From positions 1 through 37,351 of the forward strand of contig CALCGG010000118.1 of assembly GCA_937900945.1 (NCBI GenBank): a DNA stretch of 37,351 nt, read 5' to 3'. Positions within the stretch are counted from its first letter, which is position 1. Each line of letters starts with the position of its first letter. The notes under the pieces were generated by a model, which saw nothing but the letters and a program-made list of their open reading frames with translations, ran no database searches and was not told where the DNA came from. Shown in pieces: positions 36,762 through 37,351 of this stretch. Origin of the DNA: an uncultured Sulfurimonas sp. (GTDB taxonomy: Bacteria; Campylobacterota; Campylobacteria; Campylobacterales; Sulfurimonadaceae). A program made the position numbers and the translations under genes.

Positions 36762-37081
36762 TAAATTATTTTCCAGCCTTGACTTTCAAAAGCTTTTTTA
36801 GCCTTTGAACAAAGCGGTGCATCAATAAAAATTATCTTATGCTTAAAATTATGGTCAAAATAGATAACTAATTTAGCATATATCTCTTCAAATTTATGCA
36901 CATCTTTCATAAGCAACCTGCTCTTTTGACTTACTGCGAAAATTGCCCAGAAATACCCGGTTGTATCAGTAGCTTTATAAATCTTGATTTTATTTCTAAT
37001 GCCCAGCTCTTTTGGAGCAACTTCTTGCATTTTTTTATAAATTTTCCCTTTTTTTCTTAGAGAATCTACTATCATCTGCAT
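36761..37081 (-). CDS. Conserved hypothetical protein
   Basis: Track ORF 36761-37111. The internal ATG at 37081 has SD AAGGA (37093-37089, 7-nt spacing); upstream ATGs at 37099 and 37111 are less well supported. Confidence 0.6.
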   Translation of the reverse strand: MQMIVDSLRKKGKIYKKMQEVAPKELGIRNKIKIYKATDTTGYFWAIFAVSQKSRLLMKDVHKFEEIYAKLVIYFDHNFKHKIIFIDAPLCSKAKKAFESQGWKII

Positions 37082-37085
37082 ATTT

Positions 37086-37351
37086 AAGTCCTTAGCCATA
37101 AATAACCCCAACTTCAGCGATAAGTAAATAGCTCTAGTGCTAGGCAGATTTTCGCAGGGCTAGTTTACCTAGTTCAAGAGAATCTAACGACGCAATAGGG
37201 CTATTTACTTATCGCCCGAAGGGAAGTTTAAAAAGAGGGCTACTGCTTCGTTGAAAGCACTTGAAGCTACTAGTAGCTCCTGCGCACTTTCGCCTCACAT
37301 TAGCCCTCTTTTTAAGCTTCTGAAGCTGGGATTATCTATGGCTAAGGACTT
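37086..37351. repeat. Structured non-coding element: outer 32-bp inverted repeat enclosing two ~99-bp hairpins
   Basis: Outer arms 37086-37117 / 37320-37351 match 29 of 32; hairpin B arms 37117-37136 / 37196-37215; hairpin C arms 37223-37242 / 37301-37320. Confidence 0.85.

Follow-up and report, generated by a model that had tools for sequence, protein, structure and literature searches.

A putative IS630-type MITE with a conserved double-hairpin module at a contig end in Sulfurimonas

A nested inverted repeat at the end of a contig

The right edge of the stretch of DNA analyzed here (the window), which is the complete 37,351-nucleotide contig C118 of the ~2.35-Mb draft genome of an uncultured Sulfurimonas sp. 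(G000), raises the question of what kind of element is represented by a block of nested inverted repeats that ends exactly where the contig does. The initial annotation described an outer repeat enclosing two hairpins, and all three repeats were located at the same positions when rechecked: the outer repeat at 37086-37117 and 37320-37351 (32 nt, 91% identity), the repeat of hairpin B at 37117-37140 and 37192-37215 (24 nt, 92%) and that of hairpin C at 37223-37245 and 37298-37320 (23 nt, 91%), with ~99 nt in each of the two hairpins. The minimum free energy of the block folded as RNA is -128.3 kcal/mol, compared with the mean of -68.9 kcal/mol for shuffled sequences (z = -12.9), and none of the 200 shuffles folds as well; all three repeats are genuine, and their nesting lies well outside what chance would produce. 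Of the three-way junction proposed originally, the nested stems stand, but the CCCGAAGGG linker between the hairpins is itself a conserved mini-hairpin, so that complete folding of the strand would give a four-way junction.

The last 55 nt of the window exactly overlap the end of contig C122, and contig C12 of a related genome (G063) aligns to the left flank of the window and the C122 flank together; hence C122 continues the window and provides the sequence beyond position 37351 that the initial annotation had lacked. The right edge is a repeat-induced assembly break rather than a fold-back artifact, and the element may account for many contig breaks across Sulfurimonas assemblies.

Comparison of dispersed copies, together with the analysis of TIRs and target duplications, delimits a mobile unit of 264 bp, AGTCC...GGACT (37087..37350), that, judged from these alignments, appears to be an IS630-type MITE bearing a double-hairpin module. 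The outermost A and T of the 32-nt outer repeat lie outside this unit and belong to a TA target duplication, the left copy of which (37085..37086) is identified from the sequence, the class-wide TA statistics and the joined flanks in G063, and the right copy of which consists of T37351 and the next A, on contig C122; in context, the window copy, a member of the TA class, reads ...TTTA/AGTCC...GGACT/TAACG.... The left outer arm (AGTCCTTAGCCATAAATAACCCCAACTTCAG, 37087..37117) is a TIR that matches the ends of IS630-family insertion sequences (AGTCCCCATCCACAAAAAACCCCAA in G072 and AGTACCTATCCAAAAATAAAACCAA in G073), and the right outer arm (37320..37350) is assigned as the other TIR from the inverted-repeat and target-duplication analysis and the overlap with C122. 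Between the arms lie hairpin B (37118..37214, plus strand), which is here of the beta type, with a lower stem, an upper wobble stem and an AGGC...AACGA core, the linker mini-hairpin (37215..37223), which is delimited by comparison of copies and reads CCCTTCGGG, CCCGTAGGG or CCCTACGGG in others, and hairpin C (37224..37319, minus strand), which is of the alpha type, with the core AGGC...GCAGGAGCTACTAGTAGCTTCAAG...AACGAAG. The covariance model R1, with the window copy among the sequences used to build it, matches hairpin B at 37113-37219 on the plus strand (87.6 bits, E = 3e-21) and hairpin C at 37219-37324 on the minus strand (99.9 bits, E = 1.6e-24).

A dispersed family in Sulfurimonas and its order

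Copies were sought across Sulfurimonas and in a collection of 84,980 species genomes. Within G000, full copies are present on contigs C234, C110 and C198, the covariance model adds paired matches on C99 and one match on C22, and contigs C69, C122 and C107 terminate in an outer arm of the window type. Relatives of the window's element show 85-96% identity, with unrelated flanks even around the most similar elements. The shared plan consists of an outer arm of ~32 nt, a hairpin, a CCCGAAGGG-like linker, a second hairpin and another outer arm, mostly within 264-275 bp; the hairpins have the common core AAGGC...AACGMAG and, when both are found, abut head to head. The copy-number search suggested in the initial annotation thus yields many dispersed copies in related genomes, and the lack of homologs and covariation that was named there as grounds for refutation is the opposite of the outcome, with both found.

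The tip pattern of hairpin C detects 91 stretches in species-representative genomes, and the loci listed from the scan of the 84,980 species genomes are all from Campylobacterota. R1 matches a hairpin in 88 of the 299 genomes of the order, representing 30 of the 81 genera sampled, with at least 13 matches per genome in several of these; among 121 sampled genomes of the phylum, R1 has 10 matches, all of them within the same order. Three equal matches in G207 (L273-L275) lie inside a long segment that is near-identical at several places and were discarded as evidence of mobility. Four copies have no match in Rfam 15 up to E = 1, in line with the original failure to recognize an RNA family. The full element has no match in phages and plasmids, further plasmid queries and E. 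coli gave no match, and a scan of IMG/VR with the tip pattern returned 0 matches; nothing in these comparisons points to an origin from a phage or plasmid. No account of the double-hairpin family was found in open-license PMC papers, and this ~265-bp non-coding mobile family of Sulfurimonas and its order is, apparently, both large and undescribed.

Transposon ends, target duplications and empty sites

The flank statistics sort by the type of the outer arm into classes. A 3-bp TWA duplication accompanies 19 of the 22 copies of the TACC..GGTA-ended class, a 2-bp TA duplication is found in 19 of the 26 copies with AGTNCC..GGNACT ends (class B) and in all six with AGTAAG ends (class F), and the GGGC..GCCC-ended class has a 4-bp TTAA-like duplication in 5 of 9. 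Orthologous sites without the full element are present in many species, which are too diverged for a base-exact TA footprint; in the related species G063, the flanks of the window are joined on contig C12, with no full element between them. The MITE suggested as one of the candidates at the outset is borne out: the copies are short, non-coding and dispersed between unrelated flanks, with transposon-type TIRs, target duplications and sites that are empty in related species, and there are autonomous insertion sequences with the same ends. The origin by inverted duplication of a gene leader, which was another candidate, is not supported, the two ends being the same transposon end and the arm ATGs belonging to the repeat.

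The complete genome G073 carries three identical 1,122-bp IS630 copies, TA/AGTACCTAATCAAAAATAAAACCA...TGGTTTTATTTTTGGATAGGTACT/TA (AGTACC..GGTACT ends), with a transposase that matches NF033545 at 152 bits (cutoff 100) and PF13358 at 1e-30, and the MITEs in this genome share ~25-29 nt with the right end of the IS630. A related insertion sequence in G072 ends in AGTCCCCATCCACAAAAAACCCCAA, close to AGTCCTTAGCCATAAATAACCCCAA of the window. The second IS630, in G074, is also 1,122 bp long, has TACCAATCCCC and TACCAATCCCCATTAA ends with TTA duplications and is the match for the class with the TWA duplication, and G089 contains an IS5-family insertion sequence of 1,260 bp (NF033581, 257 bits; cutoff 140), the AGGGCACCTCTAAAAACCC ends of which are the class-C arms and the flanks of which fit a 4-bp duplication only partly. 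The hairpin module is missing from the ends of all these IS630 and IS5 partners. A DDE_3 gene was looked for in the draft genome G000 and not found; the window's own TIR matches insertion sequences of other species, and the TIR match within the same genome is that in G073. The outer arms gathered over the order include further TIR types, and one and the same interior module is, by these end comparisons, flanked in different copies by the ends of two or more IS630 subgroups and of an IS5 element. No partner was found in the genomes searched for the TAGACTTCTTGC ends. In a tree of the interiors, to which the TIR classes were assigned roughly, class mostly tracks interior subfamily, so that TIR switches appear to be few and old; frequent TIR swapping was rejected on the same grounds.

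Several loci depart from this plan. Copies in G039 and G071 (L279-L284) have TAGACTTCTTGC and AGACTTCTTTC ends, with no autonomous insertion sequence with these ends among the genomes searched. Bare TIR-TIR palindromes of 32-55 bp, with no hairpin module, occur in G117 (L165, contig C76), G068 (L164, C5) and G014 (L270, C226) and are, possibly, deletion products or the empty target of the module. A lone outer arm of the window type on contig C50 of G000 (L010:1500-1521) encodes the last codons of a gene (NYLWLRT-stop) and may be the trace of an excision that has come to serve as a C-terminus. An internally deleted IS630 of 649 bp in G145 (L266, C1:2249026-2249674), with class-A ends and no hairpins, is an ordinary deletion MITE, in contrast to the double-hairpin elements. 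Locus L264 in G073 (C1:1480145-1481723) consists of a DDE_Tnp_1 gene (with a DDE_Tnp_1_assoc domain) between class-A ends that are separated by 1.6 kb; it was rejected as a partner insertion sequence, being probably one inserted in a class-A copy, one end of which retains a hairpin. Locus L050, considered as an insertion sequence with class-D ends, turned out to be a full copy and a truncated copy around ordinary genes.

Strand-specific constraint on the hairpins

In a set of 81 diverse hairpins, in which four helices were analyzed, 96.3% of the helix cells are paired, compared with 60.8% after shuffling, and the covariation score is 0.964, compared with at most 0.167 for slid-register controls. 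The covariation check proposed initially comes out positive, with double changes in 32 of the 33 pairs of the hairpin helices; the invariant unpaired positions fall in the AGGC and AAC core.

The non-Watson-Crick pairs in the stems are asymmetric with respect to strand. On the AAGGC strand, in hairpins selected under a rule that accepts G.T as a pair, the main stem has 108 G.T and 1 A.C in its five upper pairs, with G.T:A.C ratios of 78:6 in the inner stem and 16:14 in the lower stem. The bias was unchanged in a recount on hairpins picked out by their position or the sequence of the tip, in registers set by Watson-Crick pairs only, where the alpha hairpin has 97:1 in the upper stem, 82:4 in P3 and 12:10 in the lower stem, and the beta hairpin, on the opposite strand, has 102:1 in the upper stem and 14:1 in the lower stem, all these mismatches being drawn from related sequences rather than representing independent events. 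An independent set from other genera gives 74:2, 27:1 and 11:8, and the outer arms show no wobble bias (39:33). These counts provide comparative evidence that both hairpins are under constraint in the form of a folded single strand, hairpin B in the plus strand and hairpin C in the minus strand, and the outer arms behave as duplex transposase sites.

A single spanning RNA predicts G.U tolerance in the outer stem and both hairpins constrained on one strand, neither of which is seen. Therefore, the structured leader RNA considered in the initial annotation is disfavored as one three-way-junction RNA, the outer stem being unbiased and the hairpins constrained on opposite strands; single hairpins acting as RNA are compatible with the data.

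In four copies (L167-L170), the tip of one hairpin is deleted and the stem is kept, which resembles replication slippage at a hairpin, and L165 is a perfect 54-bp TIR palindrome without the module. Such tip-deleted copies and the bare palindrome would fit the formation of the hairpins in DNA.

Gene context

All 49 copies with enough flank are intergenic, none being inside a long ORF, and the approximate, ORF-based classification of 46 of these gives 21 divergent, 21 tandem and 4 convergent arrangements; the alpha hairpin is in the sense orientation in 13 cases versus 5. In the window, the adjacent gene (36764..37081, minus strand) is an ORF for a small protein with no Pfam match, and its start is likely to be the ATG at 37081-37079, 5 nt outside the element; a second in-frame ATG (37099-37097) lies inside the outer arm, and the counterpart of this start in G063 also reads ATG CAA ATG. 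The AAGGA in the TIR (37089..37093, minus strand), located 7 nt before ATG 37081, may be a portable ribosome-binding site that the element brings along. In 11 of 101 cases, a class-B end is found 0-5 nt away from an ORF that begins with ATG, with GGATAGG or GGAGAGG just upstream. More generally, outer arms of the TA class resemble ribosome-binding sites (AAGGA, GGATAGG, GGAGGGG), often 0-5 nt before a start codon (L121, L096, L034, L067 and L074), and the element may reshape the 5' regions of adjoining genes.

Proposed mechanism and alternative explanations

Taken together, the ends, target duplications and empty sites make it highly probable that the block is a non-autonomous MITE with IS630 (Tc1/mariner-type) TIRs that carries a conserved hairpin module. 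An IS630 transposase acting in trans would cut at both arms and reinsert the unit at a TA; with no IS630 gene found in the draft genome G000, the window copy may be stranded. With regard to the hairpins, we lean slightly towards their formation in single-stranded or cruciform DNA during replication or transposition, where they would present a strand-specific recognition feature, namely, the AAGGC/AACGMAG loops and the wobble pairs, that assists the element in trans, for instance, by keeping the TIRs a set distance apart or by attracting a host factor. Since a hairpin of this kind reads inward from either end, the unit would function whichever way round it is inserted and with any transposase that matches its ends. 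Two observations weigh against this role in DNA: G.T tolerance fits RNA as well, and the lower stem of the beta hairpin is slightly biased. A broader reading, which we consider plausible but hold only tentatively, is that an ancient hairpin-pair module is a general passenger that has come to be flanked by the TIRs of several transposases that are unrelated to one another (IS5, two or more IS630 subgroups and, probably, others), with the hairpins active in DNA or RNA whatever the transposase.

Among the alternatives, the one that survives best, although it is unlikely on balance, accepts the TIRs as those of a MITE but has the hairpins act as RNA: in the transcript of any gene that extends into the element, the first hairpin would be the properly oriented one and would control mRNA stability, RNase III-like cleavage or readthrough, as for NEMIS, and the two opposite copies would make the effect independent of the direction of insertion. 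The G.U tolerance on one strand of each hairpin, the purine-purine mismatch loops, which are typical for RNA, the placement of the elements in promoters or 5'-UTRs, their proximity to start codons and the excess of sense alpha hairpins all agree with such a role. Conversely, the G.U tolerance expected throughout a transcribed hairpin is missing from the lower stem of the alpha hairpin and from the outer stem, and there is no match in Rfam. The second alternative, that these are ordinary MITEs with long palindromic interiors in which template-switch (quasi-palindrome) correction maintains the pairing of functionless stems, is improbable and already disfavored: such correction would yield paired, drifting, unbiased stems, as in the alpha lower stem and the outer arms, but leaves unexplained the near-absolute strand bias of the upper stem and P3, the invariance of the AGGC/AAC core across genera, the constant length of ~264-275 bp and the presence of one module with the TIRs of different transposases. 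Less probable still is a REPIN-like element whose single-stranded hairpins would be the substrate of a Y1 (RAYT/HUH) transposase, the outer arms being incidental; the two head-to-head asymmetric hairpins under strand-specific constraint are as in REPINs (PMC3116915), but the clear TIRs in common with DDE insertion sequences, the target duplications of class-specific length and the ~32-nt outer arms on all 32 order-wide pairs examined are not, and membership among the REPINs was rejected on account of the DDE-type TIRs and target duplications. The shape of the hairpins also brought to mind an integron attC site, which would have RYYYAAC/GTTRRRY boxes, a cassette array and an integrase, but the TIRs and target duplications point away from it. 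Finally, an assembly artifact, to which only the coincidence of the contig end with the end of the element points, has a negligible probability and is refuted by complete relatives within long contigs, in closed genomes (G073, G060 and G011) and in many independent assemblies.

The preferred reading is that of a MITE of an unusual, modular kind that is mobilized in trans and the hairpins of which would act in DNA. Bacterial MITEs are usually viewed as what deletion has left of a single insertion sequence, and their interiors as lacking a conserved function. Here, the interior is the part that is conserved across the order, and the ends belong to different transposase families, so that the element lets one test whether non-autonomous elements can come to carry a structured helper that is portable and change from one transposase to another. 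The clear covariation and strand-asymmetry signal offers a handle on whether the hairpins function in RNA or in single-stranded DNA.

Comparison with known systems

Among the known systems, RUP (repeat unit of pneumococcus), a 107-bp MITE of IS630-Spn1 that has TIRs of 9 bp and for which no functional motif is reported (PMC2229807), resembles the element in being intergenic, with IS630-type TIRs, a TA target, many copies and movement in trans (inferred in both cases), but the element differs in its size of 264-275 bp, ~30-nt TIRs, two conserved hairpins and several unrelated TIR types. Correia/NEMIS elements of Neisseria (PMC2229807) have in common with it the TA termini, a long hairpin, the location near genes and a possible effect on mRNA; however, theirs is a single long stem-loop formed from the TIRs, in contrast to head-to-head internal hairpins with strand-specific cores. 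The CIR elements of Caulobacter and Brucella (PMC2229807) similarly consist of two long hairpin arms and a linker but have no clear TIRs or target duplications and contain a GANTC motif, whereas the TIRs of the present element enclose both arms. REPINs (PMC3116915) also have two asymmetric palindromes in inverted orientation with predicted hairpins but, unlike the element, are thought to be mobilized by RAYT (Y1) and have no DDE-type TIR or target duplication. The IS630 and IS5 insertion sequences of Sulfurimonas (L230, L265 and L289) share its TIRs and, in the case of the IS630 types, its target duplications, but encode a transposase and lack the hairpin module. Each of RUP, NEMIS, CIR and REPIN has one feature in common with the element. 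As a MITE, the element is of a known kind, and its modular build, that is, one conserved, strand-symmetric double hairpin between the ends of different transposase families, was not found described in open-license PMC papers.
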